Assembly: GCA_027459645.1 (NCBI GenBank)
Contig: DAIDHQ010000030.1
Location: 62,001 to 126,000 of the forward strand
DNA from: Vulcanimicrobiota bacterium
GTDB lineage: Bacteria > Vulcanimicrobiota > Vulcanimicrobiia > Vulcanimicrobiales > Vulcanimicrobiaceae
Length of the DNA stretch: 64,000 nt
Reading direction: 5' to 3'
In this document: positions 3,126 through 44,634 of the stretch, piece after piece
How the letters are laid out: the number at the start of each line of letters is the position of its first letter
How positions within the stretch are numbered: the first letter of the stretch is position 1
The notes under the pieces: model-generated
Seen by the model: only the letters and a program-made list of their open reading frames with translations
What the model was told of the DNA's origin: nothing
Database searches by the model: none
Made by a program: the position numbers and the translations under genes

Positions 3126-4376
3126 CTAGCGATTTCGACAGAACGCGGCGCGACGATGTAAGAACATTCGATCGCGCTCGTTCTTTGCGAGCGTCGCCGC
3201 CCGCTCGAACGCGAGTGCGGCTTCGCTATAGCGCATCATGCGTTCCAACGCGTCAGCGCGAACGGCGGGCAGCAGGTGGTACTCACGAAGCGCGCCCTCG
3301 TCCTCCAGTTCGTCGATCAGCGGCAGCGCGGCCTCCGGCCCAAAGGCCATGCCGACGGCGACCGCGCGATTGAGCCGGACGACGGGCGTAGGCATCATTT
3401 CGGCAAGTGCGTCATAGAGCGCCGCAATTCCGTGCCAATCCGTTTGTTCGAAGGTCGCCGCGCGTGCATGAACGGCCGCGATAGCCGCCTGCAAACCATA
3501 TGGCCCAAGCGAACCACGTTCGTGCGCGCGCTCCAGTTCGCTCAGACCGCGGCGGATCGACGATCGGTTCCAACGCGAGCGATCCTGATCCGCCAGAAGC
3601 ACCGGTGTGCCGTCCGTCTGCGCGCGCGCGGCGGAACGCGACGACTGCAGTTCCATGAGCGCCACCAATGCGTGCACCTCGCCGGACTCCGGCGCAAGGT
3701 GCGTCAAGGCCCGCCCCAAACGCAGCGCGTCCTCGCACAGCGCCGGCCGCACCACATCGGCGCCGGTTGTAGCCGAGTAACCCTCGTTGAAGACGAGGTA
3801 GATCACTTCCATAACCGTTGAAAGCCGGCCCATCCGCTCGGCCTGCGACGGCAGCTCGAAGGGAATGCGGGCTTCGGCAAGCATCCGTTTCGCGCGAACG
3901 ATGCGCTGCGCGATCGTCGGTTCGGACGTGAGAAATGCGCGGGCGATCTCCGCCGTCGTTAGCCCTGCGACCAGGCGCAACGTCAGTGCGACGCGTGCCT
4001 CCCGCGAGAGAAGCGGATGACAGGCGATGAACATCAAGCGGAGCATATCGTCACCTACGTCTTGATCGAGCATCTCGATCTCCGACTCAATCGAGATCGA
4101 ATGCGCCGTCGAGCGCTGGAGTTCGCCCGTTTTTGCTCGCAGCGTGTCTTCACGCCTGAACCGATCGATCGCGCGCCGCTTTGCGATAGTCATCAGCCAC
4201 GCGCCGGGATTCTCCGGCACGCCGCCGTCGCGCCATCGGTCGAGCGCAGCGACGAATGCATCTTGCGCGATATCTTCGGCGAGCGCGAGGTCGCGCGTCA
4301 CCCGTGCCAGTGCGGCGATGAGCCGCGGCGACTCGATGCGCCAAATCGTATCGAGCCGCCGTTCGAAGTCCCCCAT
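3126..4376 (-). CDS. ECF42-type RNA polymerase sigma factor
   Basis: A 416-residue sigma factor. Region 2 occupies about residues 10-80 (LAEDIAQDAFVAALDRW), region 4 about 110-170 (LTLRLVAGLTTAEIARAF), and a ~230-residue helical C-terminal extension follows. This long extension, together with the adjacent DGPF/YCII proteins, is the signature of the ECF42 group. That group is known to lack an anti-sigma factor and to depend on the TPR-like extension. It lies 62 bp downstream of the two DGPF genes and 20 bp upstream of the DoxX gene, all on the same strand. The target promoters are probably in this operon, but that is not demonstrated. Confidence 0.88.
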   Translation of the reverse strand: MGDFERRLDTIWRIESPRLIAALARVTRDLALAEDIAQDAFVAALDRWRDGGVPENPGAWLMTIAKRRAIDRFRREDTLRAKTGELQRSTAHSISIESEIEMLDQDVGDDMLRLMFIACHPLLSREARVALTLRLVAGLTTAEIARAFLTSEPTIAQRIVRAKRMLAEARIPFELPSQAERMGRLSTVMEVIYLVFNEGYSATTGADVVRPALCEDALRLGRALTHLAPESGEVHALVALMELQSSRSAARAQTDGTPVLLADQDRSRWNRSSIRRGLSELERAHERGSLGPYGLQAAIAAVHARAATFEQTDWHGIAALYDALAEMMPTPVVRLNRAVAVGMAFGPEAALPLIDELEDEGALREYHLLPAVRADALERMMRYSEAALAFERAATLAKNERDRMFLHRRAAFCRNR

Positions 4377-4438
4377 CCGTTCAGTCGAGCGCGCCGCTCA
4401 CCTCGATGAGTTCGCGCGTTCGCGCGACGGCACGTTCT

Positions 4439-4858
4439 TCATGTTCCCAGGCCTCCGATCCGAAGGCGCGCTTCCTGTTCGCGCAACTCGGGGGTAATGT
4501 TCTCGCCGAAGTCTTCGGCCTCGAATATCTGACGGATCTCGAGCGTACCGCCGTTATTGAAACAGGGCGCCTGCCGGAACCATTCGATCGCCTCTTCTTT
4601 TGATTGCATCTTGACGATCCAATAGCCGGCAATGAGCTCTTTCGTTTCGGCGAAGGGGCCGTCGATCACGCGACGATTCTCACCATCGAATCGAATGCGC
4701 GCGCCTTTGGAACTGGGGTGCAGACCCTCGCCTTCGAGCAGCAGGCCCGCTTTAGCGAGACGCTCGTTGAATTCGCCCATGGCCGTCAGCTCTTCGGTCG
4801 TCGGGAGTACGCCGGCCTCGATATCCGGCGTCGAGCGCACCATCACCATGAATCGCAT
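4439..4858 (-). CDS. DGPF/YCII-domain protein, copy 1
   Basis: 139 residues starting at the internal ATG 4858 (MRFMVMVRSTPD), not at the longer upstream reading. It carries the diagnostic motif VIDGPFAETKELIAGYW and an EAIEWFRQAPCF segment. This is a YCII-related ferredoxin-like fold of the type encoded beside ECF42 sigma factors. Only 2 bp separate its start from the stop of a second copy. The two share most of their length (RFMV, GEFNxRLxKAGxLLE, SSKGARIxF), so this is a tandem duplication. The C-terminus is ~18 residues longer than copy 2. Biochemical function is unknown in the family. Confidence 0.88.
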   Translation of the reverse strand: MRFMVMVRSTPDIEAGVLPTTEELTAMGEFNERLAKAGLLLEGEGLHPSSKGARIRFDGENRRVIDGPFAETKELIAGYWIVKMQSKEEAIEWFRQAPCFNNGGTLEIRQIFEAEDFGENITPELREQEARLRIGGLGT

Positions 4859-4860
4859 CG

Positions 4861-5220
4861 TTACACGGCCTCCGCAAAATCTTCGGCTTCGTGCAGTTCG
4901 CGGATCTCGAGCGTGTCGCCGTTGTCGAAACAGGGCGCTTGCCGGAACCACTCAATCGCTTCGTCTTTGGATTTCATCTCGACGATCCAGAAGCCGCAAA
5001 CCAGCTCCTTCGTTTCAGCGAACGGACCGTCGATCACGGTTCGCTGGTCGCCGTTGAACGTGATGCGCGCACCTTTGGACGTGGGCTTGAGCCCGTCGGC
5101 CTCGAGCAGAACGCCCGCTTTAGAAAGGCGGTCGTTGAATTCTCCCATTTCTGCCAAGTCGGCTCGGGTCGGAACGGCGGCGGGTTCCTTCGCCAAGCGG
5201 ACGATCACCATGAATCGCAT
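4861..5220 (-). CDS. DGPF/YCII-domain protein, copy 2
   Basis: 119 residues. ATG 5220 is preceded by a good AAGGAGA Shine-Dalgarno, so it is preferred to the ORF extension to 5292. The motif VIDGPFAETKELVCG is the DGPF hallmark. It is the promoter-proximal gene of the unit DGPF2-DGPF1-ECF42-DoxX. One copy differs from the other mainly at surface-type positions and in the tail, so they may form a heteromer. That is an inference. Confidence 0.88.
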   Translation of the reverse strand: MRFMVIVRLAKEPAAVPTRADLAEMGEFNDRLSKAGVLLEADGLKPTSKGARITFNGDQRTVIDGPFAETKELVCGFWIVEMKSKDEAIEWFRQAPCFDNGDTLEIRELHEAEDFAEAV

Positions 5221-5312
5221 GCTGTCTCCTTGCGTAGGTCGTGTTCTACAAGTGACGTCGAACGGGCGGCGGCGATCTCGACACGCGGGCAAAAAAAGCC
5301 CGGGCGCTGCGG

Positions 5313-6185
5313 TCAGGAAGAAACCAGGCGGGCCGACGGCTTCGGCCGCAGGTCCGGCAGCGAGCGCAGCTTTCGCTCGTCGACCGATCCCGGTTCAGCG
5401 GTGTAAACCACCATCTCCATGTCGGGATGATCGGGCACGGCGAGTACGGTGAATTCCAAGCGCATGTCGCCGAGTTGCGGATGACGCAGCAGCTTAAAGC
5501 CTTCGCTTTGATGGTTGACGTCGTGCTCCGACCAGTACTGCCGAAACTCGGCGCTGCTTTCGAGCAGCTCGTCGATCAATTCCCGGAAACACGGGTCGTC
5601 CGGATAACGCGCGGCGCGCGCGCGGAACTTCGCGACGAGGCCGCGCGCGGAATGCTCCCAGCGCGGAAAGAACGTGCTGCATTCGCCGGAACGCATGAAA
5701 AAACGCCAGATCAAATTCCGGTGCTTGACGTCCATCGCGTCGTAGTTGCCGAAGAGATCGAGCGCGGCTTGATTCCACGCGAGAATATCGTAACGGCGCC
5801 CGCGGATGCTCGCCGGGTTCGGGTCGAGCTGATCCAGCACGCGTTGGAAGAGCGGGCTCACCGATTCCGTCGCCGCTACGATCGGCTGATCGGGCCGGTG
5901 ACCCGCGAGTAAGAAGAGGTGCTCGCGCTCGCGTTCGGTGAGCTGCAGCGCTTTGGCGATATTGCGCAGCACGTCGACCGAAACGTTGATCGGCGCCCCT
6001 TGCTCGAGGCGCGTATACCACGTTACACCGATGTTCGCAAGCAGCGCGACCTCTTCGCGGCGCAGGCCGGGCGTACGTCGGCGCCCCCCTCCGGCGAGGC
6101 CCACGTCGCTGGGCATAACGCGCGCGCGGCGGTTCCGCAGAAAGTCGGCAAGTTCGTCGCGCTGGGCGAGTTCGGAAGCGATCAT
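5313..6185 (-). CDS. XRE-family regulator with MmyB-like ligand domain
   Basis: 290 residues from ATG 6185 (MIASELAQRDELADFLR). The ORF extends further upstream, but that part crosses the intergenic repeats and the divergent gene. Residues ~30-90 are an XRE helix-turn-helix (LRREEVALLANIGVTWYTRLEQG). Residues ~105-275 match the MmyB-like ligand-binding domain that follows such HTHs (DILAWNQAALDLFGNY ... HDVNHQSEGFKLLRHPQLGDMRLEF). Regulators of this class usually sit divergent from the gene they control, here the MFS exporter at 6283. The ATAGGAT repeats in between are the likely binding sites. Confidence 0.87.
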   Translation of the reverse strand: MIASELAQRDELADFLRNRRARVMPSDVGLAGGGRRRTPGLRREEVALLANIGVTWYTRLEQGAPINVSVDVLRNIAKALQLTEREREHLFLLAGHRPDQPIVAATESVSPLFQRVLDQLDPNPASIRGRRYDILAWNQAALDLFGNYDAMDVKHRNLIWRFFMRSGECSTFFPRWEHSARGLVAKFRARAARYPDDPCFRELIDELLESSAEFRQYWSEHDVNHQSEGFKLLRHPQLGDMRLEFTVLAVPDHPDMEMVVYTAEPGSVDERKLRSLPDLRPKPSARLVSS

Positions 6186-6196
6186 GGCATTCTCAG

Positions 6197-6249
6197 TGAT
6201 AGGATAAAGAGGCGTCTGGTAATAGGATTCTTCGCGGTTTATCCTATCA
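6197..6249. promoter_or_regulatory. Three-copy ATAGGAT operator between divergent genes
   Basis: A perfect 12-bp inverted repeat, TGATAGGATAAA at 6197-6208 and its complement at 6238-6249, flanks a third, direct copy of ATAGGAT at 6222-6228. The direct copies are 23 bp apart, close to two helical turns. The array lies between the regulator start (6185) and the exporter start (6283), so it is well placed to be the regulator's binding site for autoregulation and exporter control. Confidence 0.7.
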
Positions 6250-6282
6250 CACAACGCTTCCCTGGAGTAGTACCACAAGCCA

Positions 6283-7833
6283 ATGTTAACGGCACCCCGG
6301 CCGGCCGCGGCAACGTCGCACGGCTCTATTCCCGCCATGCCTCCCGCTGCACCCGTTTCGCTGGTCGAACACGGCACGCGCCGCATGCTCATCGTCGCCG
6401 GCGTTATGCTGGCAGCGCTGCTGCAAATGATCGACACGACGATCGTGAACGTCTCCCTGCCCACGATTCAGGGCAATCTCGGCGCGACCGTCGACGAAGC
6501 GATCTGGATCGTCACGGCGTTCGTGGTTGCGAACGTCGTCGTGATCCCGATCACGCCGTGGCTGCAGCGCCGCCTCGGCCGCAAACGCTATTTTCTGATC
6601 TCTATCGCCGGATTCACGCTCACGTCGCTGCTCTGCGGCCTGGCGACCTCGCTCGATGCATTGATTCTCTTTCGCATCGCGCAGGGTGCCTTCGGCGGCG
6701 GCCTGCTTTCGACGGCGCAAGTGATCATGCGCGATACGTTCGGCCCGAAAGAGCTCGGGTTGAGTCAATCGATCTTCGCGTTTTCGACGGTGCTCGGCCC
6801 GTCGATCGGCCCGACGCTCGGCGGCATCATCACCGATAATTGGTCGTGGCCGTGGATCTTCGACGTCAATATCGTGCCGGGCATCGTCGCGTTTTTCTTG
6901 GTGTGGCGGTTCCTGCGTGACGGCGATGCGCCCAAGCGCGAACCGCTCGACGGCGTCGCTCTCGCGCTCTTGATCGCCGCGCTTGCGTCTTTGCAGTTCG
7001 TGCTCGATCAAGGTCAGCAGTACGATTGGTTTTCGGATTCCCGCATCGCATGGGCAACGCTCATCAGCGTGAGTTCGGGGGTGGCGTTTGTCTGGTGGGA
7101 ATTGCGGCAACGCGCTCCTATCGTCGATTTGCGCGTCCTCCGCTATCGGGCGGTATCCGTGGCGGTCCTCTGCATCATCGCCAACGCCGTCGGTGTCTTC
7201 GGCGGTGCGCTGCTCCTGCCGCAATTTACGGTGAACATGCTCGGCTTCACCTCGACGCAGACCGGGATACTCATCGGTTTGCGCGCGCTGCCGGTCGTCT
7301 TTTTGACGCTTCCGATGGGGCGCCTGACGAACAACCCGCGCGTCGATTTGCGCATGTTGATCGGTTTCGGGCTGCTCGGCAACGGTGCCGGCGCGATCTG
7401 GCTCGCGCATGCCATAAATTCCGGCGCGACCTTCGCATCGTTCGTCGGGCCGCAGTTGCTCGCCGGGCTCGGAATCGCATTCGTCTACTCGCCGCTGCTC
7501 GTGGCCGTGCTGCGCGCCGTGCCGCACGAGGCAGCGAAAGCGTCGTCGTTCATCATTCTCGCCTTTCAGATGGGCGGATCGGTCACCGCCGCGGTGCTCG
7601 TGACGCTGCTCGACCGGCGGGAAGCCTTTCATCAATCGATCCTGGCCGGATCGATCACCTTGCACAGCGAGGCCGTCACGCAGTTTCTGCAGACGCACCC
7701 GCCCGCGCAGTTGCTCGCCCTCGTGACGCAACAAGCGACCGTGCTCGCCTATGCCGACGTGTTGCTCGCGGGCGGCGTCGCTGTCTGCGTCCTCGCACCG
7801 CTCGTCATTCTGTTAAAGAGGAAACCCGCATGA
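6283..7833 (+). CDS. DHA2-family (14-TM) multidrug MFS exporter
   Basis: 516 residues. The N-terminal segment LLQMIDTTIVNVSLPTIQ, the motif WIVTAFVVANVVVIP, the motif-C stretch LGPSIGPTLGG and the predicted ~14 helices place it in the EmrB/QacA drug:H+ antiporter branch. It is a paralogue of the exporter at 47098; both end with LLDRRxAFHQ near the C-terminus. No strong Shine-Dalgarno precedes ATG 6283, and ATG 6337 would give a protein 18 residues shorter that still has the first helix intact. It is probably controlled by the divergent XRE/MmyB-like regulator. Substrate unknown. Confidence 0.9.
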   Translation: MLTAPRPAAATSHGSIPAMPPAAPVSLVEHGTRRMLIVAGVMLAALLQMIDTTIVNVSLPTIQGNLGATVDEAIWIVTAFVVANVVVIPITPWLQRRLGRKRYFLISIAGFTLTSLLCGLATSLDALILFRIAQGAFGGGLLSTAQVIMRDTFGPKELGLSQSIFAFSTVLGPSIGPTLGGIITDNWSWPWIFDVNIVPGIVAFFLVWRFLRDGDAPKREPLDGVALALLIAALASLQFVLDQGQQYDWFSDSRIAWATLISVSSGVAFVWWELRQRAPIVDLRVLRYRAVSVAVLCIIANAVGVFGGALLLPQFTVNMLGFTSTQTGILIGLRALPVVFLTLPMGRLTNNPRVDLRMLIGFGLLGNGAGAIWLAHAINSGATFASFVGPQLLAGLGIAFVYSPLLVAVLRAVPHEAAKASSFIILAFQMGGSVTAAVLVTLLDRREAFHQSILAGSITLHSEAVTQFLQTHPPAQLLALVTQQATVLAYADVLLAGGVAVCVLAPLVILLKRKPA

Positions 7834-8126
7834 ATTTGTTTTTCGATCCCGATCTTGCCGCGTCGTATCGAGAGATCGCGCTACGTTTGGAACGCTGCGC
7901 GCGGCGCGACGAAGCGCTCGCGCATCTCGGCACAACGGCGAGGGCCCGCTATGCGTCGGCGCTGCGGTCGAATTCGTCCAATCGCGACCGCGCCTGGCGC
8001 GACTTCATCGGCGCGCTCGACGCCTTCGTATCGCTCTGCGATCGTCCGAGCACCGATCTGTACGTCTTGCGCGATATCGTCGCCGAAAACCGCGATCTCT
8101 TGGAGACGGCACGTCCGGCGGCATGA
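7830..8126 (+). CDS. Small helical hypothetical protein coupled to the exporter
   Basis: 98 residues from ATG 7830, which overlaps the exporter stop (ATGA) and has AAAGAGGAA a few bases upstream. It is therefore very likely translated by coupling. The sequence is strongly helical and charged (ASYREIALRLERCARRDEAL), with no signal peptide or membrane segment. No family recognised. Its position suggests a role with the exporter, but nothing in the sequence says what. Confidence 0.65.
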   Translation: MNLFFDPDLAASYREIALRLERCARRDEALAHLGTTARARYASALRSNSSNRDRAWRDFIGALDAFVSLCDRPSTDLYVLRDIVAENRDLLETARPAA

Positions 8127-8194: not shown

Positions 8195-11100
8195 TTGTTC
8201 GCCATCGTCTTTGCCGCGGCCGTCGCCGCCTCTGCATCTCCCTCTGCTTCCCCTTCGCCGACGCCGATTCCGACCGCGAAACCCGTGTATCAAAGCATGT
8301 CTTGGCGAGAGATCGGTCCGGGTGTTCCGGGCGGACGCGCCGCCAACGTCACGGGCTCGATCAAAAACCCGAACCTGTACTACGTTGCCGCGGCCGGCGG
8401 CGGCGTCTGGAAGACGACCGACGGCGGCGAGACGTGGGATCCCGTTTTTCAAAAAGAACCCGTCGCGTCGATCGGCGACGTGACGATCGATCCGAACGAC
8501 GACAACACCGTGTGGGTCGGCACCGGCGAAGGTAATCCGCGCAACGACGTCATTCCGGGTGCGGGCGTCTATAAGTCGACCGATGGCGGCAAGAACTGGA
8601 AGTTGATGGGACTCGACCGGACGCGCACGATCACGCGCGTGCTGGTCGATCCGAAAGATTCCAATCACGTCATCGTCGGTGCGCTCGGCGACATCTTTAA
8701 GCGGAGCGTGCATCGCGGCGTGTACGTGACCTACGACGGGGGCAAGACGTGGAAGAAGACGCTCTATTTGAGCGACCGCAGCGGCGCCTCCGAGATCGCG
8801 ATGGATCCGAACAATCCGAACGTGCTCTATGCGGGCATGTGGCACTTCGAACGCAAACCGTGGACGACGCGCAGCGGCGGGAGCGACGACGGCCTCTTCA
8901 AATCGACCGACGGCGGTAAGACCTGGACGAAGCTGAGCGGGCATGGGCTTCCGGAAGGAACGCTCGGGCGCATCGCGATTGCGGTCGCCCCTTCGAATTC
9001 CAAGCGCGTGTACGCGCTGATCGAAGCGGCGAAGGGCATCATGTGGCGCAGCGACGATGCCGGCGCAAGCTGGACGCTCGTCACGAGCGATAGCGCCGTC
9101 AATCAGCGTCCGTTCTATTTCTCGCACGTCTACGTGGATCCGAAGAACGAAAATCACGTCTATACGACGTCGCTGGAATTACAACAATCGATGGACGGCG
9201 GCAAGACGTGGCACGCGATGGGCAATGCGCCGCACGGAGATTTTCACGGCATGTGGATCGCGTCGAACGATCCCAAGCGCTTCATCGTCGCCGAAGACGG
9301 CGGCGTGGGCCGCACGCTCGACGGCGGCCACACGTGGTTCTTCGGCCGCAATCTGCCGATCGGCGAAGTCTATCACGTCGGACTGGGCACGAGCGGCAAT
9401 CCATATTGGATCTGCGGAGGCTGGCAAGATAACCTCGCGTGGTGCGGGCCGTCGTTCACGACCGACCCCAGCGGCATCCTCAACAAGTATTGGGTGAACG
9501 TCAACGGCGGAGACGGTCAGTGGGCCATCCCCGACCCGCTCGATCCAAACCTGATGTGGTCCGATACGCAAGCCGGCTCGCTCGTCATCTATAACAAAGC
9601 GACGCGCGATTCGTACTTTGCGCAGCCGTATCTTGCCACTGGCGTTCCGACGTTCGATATTCGCCTGGCGAAGTATCGCTTCAATTGGGATTCGCCGATC
9701 GCGTTCGCGCCTTGGAATCCGCACGTCGCGTGGCTTGGCGGCAACGTCGTCTTTCAGACGGCCGATCGCGGCCGCCACTGGACCGTGATCAGCCCCGATC
9801 TGACGTTGGATGAAAAGGCGCATCAGAAACCGCCGGGCGGTCCGATCGTGCACGACGTGACGAGCGCCGAAAATTATAACACCATCCTCGACATCGAGGG
9901 CTCGACGCTGCATCGCGGCGAGATCTGGGTCGGGACCGACGACGGCCAGGTGCAGTACACGCTCGACGGCGGCAAGCATTGGAAGAACGTCTCGCCGAAG
10001 ATCGTGCCCGACCACGGCGCGGTGGAAACGGTTGCACCGTCGACGACGCAGGACGGCACCGTGTACACGAGCATCGACCGTCACTTGCTCGGCGACTATA
10101 CGCCGTATCTGCTGGTGACGCACGATTTCGGCGCGACCTGGACGAACATTGCGAAGACGTTGCCGGCGAACACGTGGTACGCGCGCTCGGTGCGGCAAGA
10201 TCTGCACAACCCCAATATCGTCTACGCCGGCACCGAAACGGGGATGTACATCTCGTGCGACGGCGGAACCCATTGGGCGAATTTCAAAAATAACTTGCCG
10301 ACGGTGGCTGTTCGCGACATTCGCTTCCAACCGAAGTGGGACGACATGGCGATCGCGACGCACGGCCGAGCGCTCTATATCATGGACGATTTGCGTCCGC
10401 TGCAGCAGTATAGCTGCACGACGCCGGGTAAGCCGTTTGCGATCGGCCCTCGCACGTCGTACGAATACACGCTGCACAGCGACGACGAAGGAACGTTCAC
10501 CGACTTCTCCGGCCAGAACAAGCCATACGGGGCGACCTTCTGGTATTACCAGCCCAAGCCCGGTGCCAAGCCGCCGTCTCTCGATATCATCGACGCACGC
10601 GGACGCGTCGTGCGCAGCTACCACGGCAACGTAGAGGGTTCGCCCTTTGCACCGCCCGGAACGCCGTTTGCGAAGCCGCATCCGGCGATTCCCAACCTCG
10701 CGGGGCTGCATACGTTCAGTTGGGATTTCAACGATAACGGTCCGGTGAAGTGGAACGGCGCGCATCCGTTCTTCCGCGGACCCGATACCGGCGTGCAGAT
10801 GCCGCCGGGCACGTACCGGTATCGCATGACCGTCGACGGCGCGACCTTCACGGGCAGCTTTGCCGTGAAGGCGGATCCGGACACGAAGTTCACGCAGGCC
10901 GATTTCGTACAGTCCTATCGCTTCGGAGAACGCGCGCTAGCCAAGTTCTCCGCTCTCGATGGCGGGTTGAATGCACTCGACGACGTCAAGAAGGCGCTCG
11001 ACGCCGACCGGGCGGCGGCGCAGAAGAAAAACGATGCGGCAACCGTCGCGGCGATCGACGCAGCCTTGCAAAGTCGCGATGCGCTGCAAGACCGGCTGAC

Positions 11101-11350
11101 GGCGAACTTCAATTCGTTCGAAGATTTCGTGCAGCGACCGGGCAAGCTGCGCGAGGATCTTCAGCAGCTCACCTTCAGCGGCGGCGAACTCAGCCCGGCG
11201 TTCCTCGATCTCGGTAGACGGGTCGATGCCGAGTGGCGCGAGGGCGTAACGGCATACGCGCGCTACGCCGGGACGCTTGCCGGGCTGAATGCAAAGCTGC
11301 AAGCGGCAGGCTACGCCGCGGTTCCGGTTCCAAAACCGATCGCACCGTAG
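8195..11350 (+). CDS. Secreted Asp-box (sortilin/BNR-like) beta-propeller protein
   Basis: 1051 residues from TTG 8195, supported by GGAGGAGC just upstream and a signal-peptide-like N-terminus followed by a Ser/Pro linker. Eleven Asp-box motifs of the form xDGGxTW are visible (for example TDGGETW, YDGGKTW, LDGGHTW, HDFGATW, CDGGTHW) between about residues 70 and 700, indicating one or two multi-bladed propellers like VPS10/sortilin and BNR proteins. From ~residue 760 there is a beta-sandwich-like segment, and the last ~150 residues are helical. Homologues are often annotated as glycosyl hydrolases, but no sialidase arginine triad or catalytic residue can be assigned. The hairpin at 11365 follows the stop. 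Confidence 0.85.
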
Positions 11351-44092: not shown

Positions 44093-44634
44093 AGTATGTA
44101 CTAGGATTCCTCATCGCACTACTCGCCGGATTTGCCGCGGTACCGTCGGCCGCGCAGGCCGCGCCTAGCTGCCGCTATGCGGCGCGAACGAGTTACTTCG
44201 GCCAAATCATCAACGTGCATCCGTCGTTCTTCACGCTTAGAACGAATCAATCAATCGGACGCGTGCACGTCTTTGCGCGCGGCGCGCGCGTGAATTACGG
44301 CGGATTGCCGTTGCGGCCCGGCGTCTACGCCGGCGTCTATGGCTGCCGTGCAGGCAACGGTTTGGTTGCCGAGCAGATCACGCTCGCACAGTCGCCGCAG
44401 GCTTTTCCGGGCATGTGGTACGGGACGAGTAACGACCGTCAGGTGATCGGCCGGATCGACGCCGTGCGCGGCAACCGGATCTTGATCGAGAGCAACAACG
44501 GGCACGGAGCCGTCTGGGTCATCACGCGCCAGTATGGTTTCGGCGTCGGGCAGGTCATCGTCGCAAACGGCTATTTCTCGCCGAACGATCGCGCGTTCGT
44601 CGCATCGAACGTGGCGCCGTACCGGCCGTACTAG
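44089..44634 (+). CDS. Exported protein with two DUF5666-like repeats
   Basis: 181 residues, Sec signal peptide ending near AAQAAPS. Two ~65-residue OB-like units are visible: YFGQIINVHPSFFTLRTNQ ... GVYAGVYG and VIGRIDAVRGNRILIESNN ... VIVANGYF. The same pattern occurs singly at 1018 and 24824, so this is a tandem version. Two Cys residues (SCRY and YGCRAG) could form a disulphide. Function unknown. Confidence 0.72.
   Translation: MKYVLGFLIALLAGFAAVPSAAQAAPSCRYAARTSYFGQIINVHPSFFTLRTNQSIGRVHVFARGARVNYGGLPLRPGVYAGVYGCRAGNGLVAEQITLAQSPQAFPGMWYGTSNDRQVIGRIDAVRGNRILIESNNGHGAVWVITRQYGFGVGQVIVANGYFSPNDRAFVASNVAPYRPY

Follow-up and report, generated by a model that had tools for sequence, protein, structure and literature searches.

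A candidate three-site operator in the gap that separates an MmyB-like XRE regulator from a divergent MFS exporter

Divergent pairs of a TetR-type local repressor and an exporter are common, with the repressor acting through a shared operator region and the exporter as its target. Such pairs work like the array proposed here, while the DNA-binding family and the operator differ. Within the XRE regulators, MsrR of Corynebacterium glutamicum lies divergent from an MFS exporter, binds the gap that the two genes share and represses both sides (PMC7532634). Unlike P0001, the regulator at the locus described below, MsrR is 240 aa long and senses oxidation via Cys62; the text compared here gives no site sequence for it (PMC7532634). 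A regulator that controls itself through an operator next to a divergent exporter is familiar, as MsrR shows among the XRE regulators, and the logic is ordinary.

MltR (Caur_2278, PDB 3pxp) and Streptomyces MmyB are MmyB-like regulators (Pfam PF17765) and, like P0001, combine an HTH with a PAS-like ligand-binding domain (PMC3406030). The MltR dimer described in 2012 has recognition helices with a possible span of about 10 bp that could recognise a palindrome, and this span fits the 10-bp half-site spacing of the motif in the array (PMC3406030). The same paper proposes ligand-activated activators, whereas the array here suggests a repressor of itself and of the exporter; its available text names the MmyB B-boxes and otherwise gives no operator sequence (PMC3406030). 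A 2025 survey of XRE palindromic motifs reports 223 clusters of motifs from the upstream regions of XRE regulators, with 9 of 10 tested pairs bound, and MmyB appears once in its main text (PMC12565409). The available part of a paper on an MmyB-like Streptomyces regulator contains no binding motif (PMC10717218). In the literature that we compared, to which the MmyB B-box and the supplementary motif tables of the 2025 survey (PMC12565409) do not belong, the texts available gave no operator sequence for the MmyB-like family. Published text contains at least one of six 10-mers of the motif in 208 papers, and the 20 matches listed appear unrelated by title. Provisionally, an operator code for this family would be new. 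The family has one sequence-matched solved structure, and a site with fixed spacing would allow targets to be predicted from sequence. Definition of the site would also help in choosing a convenient family member and in relating one helix residue to the choice of DNA.

The array in the regulator/exporter gap

The array lies in the 64-kb window (the whole stretch of DNA analysed) between P0001 and the exporter P0002. In the following features, matrix ranks are those of an 18-bp matrix trained on regulators from outside the window's family.

5313 to 6185, minus strand: MmyB-like (MLTR) XRE regulator P0001, 290 aa, start assumed (Pfam HTH_31 and MLTR_LBD)
6194 to 6207, minus strand: predicted operator O1, TTATCCTATCACTG, regulator-proximal, centre 6200.5, matrix rank 1
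6201 to 6206, minus strand: possible -10 box TATCCT of the regulator, within O1, placed by position
6217 to 6230, minus strand: predicted operator O2, GAATCCTATTACCA, middle site, centre 6223.5, 23 bp from O1, matrix rank 10
6239 to 6252, plus strand: predicted operator O3, TTATCCTATCACAC, exporter side, centre 6245.5, 22 bp from O2, matrix rank 2
6240 to 6245, plus strand: possible -10 box TATCCT of the exporter, within O3, a position that reads TAnnnT in 16 of 16 orthologs
6283 to 7833, plus strand: DHA2/EmrB-type MFS efflux permease P0002, 516 aa, start assumed (TIGR00711)

P0001 carries an N-terminal XRE-type HTH (HTH_31, E 1.8e-10, 41.4 bits against a cut-off of 27) and a C-terminal ligand-binding domain that matches MLTR_LBD over its full length (E 2.3e-57, profile positions 1-168 of 168); by sequence, it matches one solved structure, PDB 3pxp (E 9.1e-07). 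P0002 reaches 352.8 bits with TIGR00711, exceeding the cut-off of 230.2. The earlier note had placed a 98-bp gap between an XRE/MmyB-like regulator and a divergent drug exporter, and these domain matches bear out both genes, although the gap is 97 bp with the start codons at 6185 and 6283, both of which are assumed. The surroundings hold several further genes. A 98-aa ORF on the plus strand (7830-8126) starts in overlap with the exporter stop codon, has no Pfam match at E 0.001 and is possibly co-transcribed with the exporter, and 8195-11350 (plus strand) encodes a protein of 1051 aa that matches Sortilin-Vps10 and BNR repeats. On the minus strand, 3126-5292 encodes an ECF sigma factor with a DUF6596 tail, adjoining two neighbouring YCII-domain proteins, an arrangement known from ECF42-type sigma groups.

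A perfect dyad spans the gap, formed by GTGATAGGATAAA at 6196-6208 and its exact complement TTTATCCTATCAC at 6238-6250, and a third ATAGGAT (6222-6228) lies between the two arms. The dyad and the third copy described earlier are both present, but the arms are 13 bp rather than 12 bp long and stand 29 nt apart. The repeat unit of the array is more aptly taken as a 14-bp pseudo-palindrome, TTATMCTAGKATAA, in three copies with centre-to-centre distances of 23 and 22 bp. A promoter scan found no consensus promoters, so we infer the -10 and -35 placements in the gap, and no terminator-like site was found there.

All three copies of ATAGGAT in the window fall in this gap. The number itself is not unusual (shuffle mean 1.60, with at least three copies in 20 of 100 shuffles); what is unusual about ATAGGAT in the window is its clustering. 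When the gap was shuffled with dinucleotides preserved (n = 20,000), at least three ATAGGAT occurred in 0 shuffles and any perfect 12-bp inverted repeat in 94, which upholds the claim that chance recurrence is small. In the proposed genome scan, ATAGGAT occurs 40 times (18 + 22) in the 3.14 Mb and 47 contigs of the genome, against 39 for the reversed-pattern control, and clusters solely at this gap, the remaining 37 copies showing no clustering. The exact pattern TATCCTANYAC is found three times in the genome, twice in this gap and once on contig 26; with up to one mismatch it is found at 67 places, and three within 55 bp occur solely at this locus. A wider regulon in the genome was considered and rejected, as eleven stretches around other TAGGATAA copies and the paralog of P0001 gave a best score of 11.1 bits, which lies inside an ORF and below O1 and O3; the best score upstream of the paralog was 4.3 bits. 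At 44094-44111, near an ORF start, there is a lone AGGAATCCTAGTACATAC match (8.0 bits) that is absent from the top pairs at 22-23 bp and is probably due to chance.

Conservation of the sites and their occurrence beside related regulators

The window's family comprises 99 genomes (its own included), of which 48 have a match to the regulator. We compared 16 orthologous pairs in which regulator and exporter diverge across a readable gap (L001-L016, the window's included); a seventeenth pair, L018, is missing the regulator start and stands outside this set. The alignment shows O1 as AGT..TAGGATA in 16/16 and O2, as read from the same alignment, as CT[AG][GC]TNATAGNAT in 16/16, while much of the remaining gap is variable. 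The word itself changes within these sites, as O1 reads ACTAGGAT or GCTAGGAT rather than ATAGGAT in most rows, and O2 reads ATAGTAT or ATAGCAT in 11 of the 16 orthologs and ATAGGAT in five. O3 is retained as TATYCTANCAC in four (L001, L002, L003 and L006) and is lineage-restricted, although all 16 keep TAnnnT columns at its position, which look like a -10 box. Conservation at orthologous loci, which the earlier note had put forward for testing, is therefore found for O1 and O2 with substitutions, whereas the exact ATAGGAT is often altered and the third site mostly missing. Because the orthologs retain O1 and O2 while the second arm is mostly lost, the 12/13-bp dyad was rejected as the unit. 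With the outside-trained matrix, all 16 ortholog upstreams score at least 9 bits; in a related MmyB/MFS pair, L028, the motif is absent.

Regulators beyond the window's family came from several searches. A search of named genomes with two peptide patterns, one of them TWYTRLEQ, gave 80 loci, and paralogs were sought in 14 genomes of those loci. Searches with the MLTR domain matched 51 of 200 genomes in Pseudomonadota, 10 of 199 in Bacillota and 42 of 151 in Chloroflexota. From 217 loci, 34 were dropped for want of a usable regulator with a P0001-like HTH, including most of the distant PF17765 members from Chloroflexota. The 187 regulators were reduced to 160 by removing identical upstreams and to 95 at <70% identity, of which 18 belong to the window's family and 77 do not. 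On the regulator strand upstream of these 77, TTATCCT shows the strongest enrichment of any 7-mer (16 against 0.72 expected). The 18-bp matrix was trained on the 77 with the window's family held out, in a search that started from TTATCCT, itself part of the finding, and reads gtTTATCCTaGTATaAnn.

Scanned over both strands of the window, this matrix places O1 first (14.1 bits, 6192-6209) and O3 second (14.0 bits, 6237-6254), with the next match at 10.5 bits; O2 is tenth at 7.3 bits and, alone, is a weak site. Scoring of the 14-bp core against a flat background, in either orientation, leaves O1 tied with chance matches, O3 fourth and O2 eighteenth. Each site of the window is moderate by itself, and what is strong is the array: the triple at 22/23 bp scores 29.0, compared with 10.3 for the best other spacing tested (15 to 61 bp). 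For the reverse test, a matrix was built from the 16 orthologs; it reaches at least 6 bits in 20 of the 77 outside upstreams, where 0.65 are expected from shuffles and 0.5 from 2598 control stretches.

At a threshold of 9 bits, the motif is present upstream of 45/95 regulators (9/18 in the window's own family), and 50/95 fall below; the 36 motif-positive outside regulators are members of the matrix training set. We also scored plasmid-borne regulators, drawn as 20 loci hand-picked for variety among 60 listed of 300 records. In this set 12 of the 19 scored reach at least 9 bits, against 0.33 by shuffles, 1/19 with the reversed matrix and 2/304 control stretches, with 6/19 of the regulators 75-89% identical to members of the earlier set. 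Outside the 19, L239 has paired sites by eye (17.8 bits).

The spacing recurs as well. Same-orientation partner sites occur 22 bp upstream in 11 and 23 bp upstream in 8 of the 45 anchored upstreams, where about 0.01 each would be expected, and 15 of these 19 belong outside the window's family. The window's own O1/O2 pair has this distance but is absent from the 19 because O2 falls under the partner threshold with a flat background. The matrix is palindromic: its mean column correlation is 0.82, and permuted columns give 0.12 (P = 0.001). In 7 of 48 anchored upstreams there is an inverted partner 15 bp downstream. By eye, L046, L078, L148 and L161 show an inverted AGGAT-like copy ~15 bp downstream of the main site, before the regulator start. 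The earlier proposal of a candidate binding motif for an MmyB-like regulator gains support from O1 and O2 in all 16 pairs and from related regulators in other phyla, where the motif and the 22-23 bp spacing are again found upstream. Its form was misjudged: in place of a 12-mer dyad with a phased copy, the unit is rather a 14-bp pseudo-palindrome every 22-23 bp.

In this sample, the motif also goes with one residue of the regulator. We place the recognition helix of P0001, and hence position 56, by an assumption from general knowledge of XRE proteins. This position is W in 45/45 motif-positive regulators, whereas the motif-negative regulators with W or Y (n = 49, one other residue set aside) divide into 26 W and 23 Y (Fisher 1.3e-8). 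The sample favours W in part, since the TWYTRLEQ search peptide over-represents W56 among the 80 loci. On the tree, the Y group (24 rows, including the other-residue row) requires 3 changes and the motif 17; both are clustered, and the Y group is not one single event. Among plasmid regulators, 12/16 with W56 reach the threshold (4 miss) and 0/3 with Y56; for those <70% identical to the earlier set the counts are 6/10 and 0/3.

Proposed action of the array and competing explanations

These observations make it very probable that the array is a three-site operator of the adjacent MmyB-like XRE regulator. The best reading is an operator array of a local, autoregulating repressor, with binding and repression predicted from sequence comparison. 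Several results count against it, namely the weakness of O2 alone, the lack of the motif at half of the sampled regulators and at L028, the low score upstream of the paralog, the clustering of the W56 association on the tree and the lineage restriction of O3. Since the half-sites TTAT and ATAA of the pseudo-palindromic motif lie 10 bp apart, one dimer per 14-bp site could read two successive major grooves. At 22-23 bp, neighbouring sites are separated by about two turns of the helix, a distance at which two or three dimers could sit side by side on one helix face and perhaps cooperate. O1 and O3 would overlap the likely -10 regions of the divergent promoters and O2 a shared -35 region, and with sites over these regions the bound regulator would repress the exporter as well as its own gene. 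DNA binding would be expected to change with a ligand of the C-terminal domain, which for the MmyB-like family would be fatty-acid-like. In this lineage, the array would tie the regulator to the exporter as its likely main target.

The competing explanation that survives best, although we judge it unlikely, is that these are promoter elements alone, with TATCCT serving each divergent gene as its -10 box and the likeness between loci being that of similar promoters. The TAnnnT columns kept at the O3 position in every ortholog fit this explanation, as does a site that runs into TATAAT in several low-GC loci; in those loci, however, the conserved TTATCCT sits upstream of TATAAT. Also against it are the generic HTH_3 regulators (a control drawn from Pseudomonadota alone with no MLTR-domain screening, L277 skipped), of which 1/29 reaches the threshold upstream, and the count of ATAGGAT, which genome-wide is no commoner than its reversed control. 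The tandem 22-23 bp spacing and the association with W56 further argue against it.

That another regulator controlling the locus binds the sites is very unlikely. Association by itself cannot name the protein, but the motif accompanies the MmyB-like family in several phyla beside differing neighbours and varies with the recognition helix of that family, and a second cluster is absent from the genome. Action of the dyad at the RNA level, where a transcript across the gap would form a hairpin or attenuator, is most improbable: the perfect 13-bp dyad with its 29-nt separation would suit it, yet the second arm is present in 4 of the 16 orthologs against 16 for the direct-repeat pair O1/O2, tandem direct repeats are retained in other phyla and the gap has no terminator-like site. 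Chance recurrence can be set aside as next to impossible, for while three ATAGGAT per 64 kb are not numerically rare, none of the gap shuffles held three copies, and the ortholog conservation and the prediction from other phyla come from held-out tests.

Beyond the reading of the array as an operator of the adjacent regulator, W56 MmyB-like regulators may share one ancient operator code, in which TTATMCTAGKATAA sites often come in pairs at 22-23 bp; the code would be kept in at least four phyla (Eremiobacterota, Pseudomonadota, Bacillota and Chloroflexota) whatever gene is controlled, and Y members would have moved to another code. We regard the case for this as evenly balanced; that the sample favours W56 and omits distant family members lowers it slightly. 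The recurrence of a similar word and spacing beside related regulators in several distant bacterial groups gives this little-studied family a DNA code that can be tested.

The genes beside the motif are varied and include exporters, reductases and ketoacyl synthases. A divergent neighbour is present at 42 motif-positive loci, 6 of which are window-type orthologs; it matches MFS_1 in 14, adh_short, Epimerase and NmrA in 6 each and ketoacyl synthase in 3, with overlap between the families. For the MmyB-like family, neighbours of the SDR/MDR or antibiotic-related kind would be expected; P0001 itself has an exporter next to it. The divergent neighbour at L242, on a Priestia megaterium plasmid, is the beta-ketoacyl synthase fabF, which recalls the fatty acid in the MltR structure. 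By eye, actinobacterial MmyB-like regulators (L074, L076, L077 and L093) have upstream runs of a CTGTCACTGATAGTC-like unit with a period of ~15 bp, unlike the 22-23 bp pattern.
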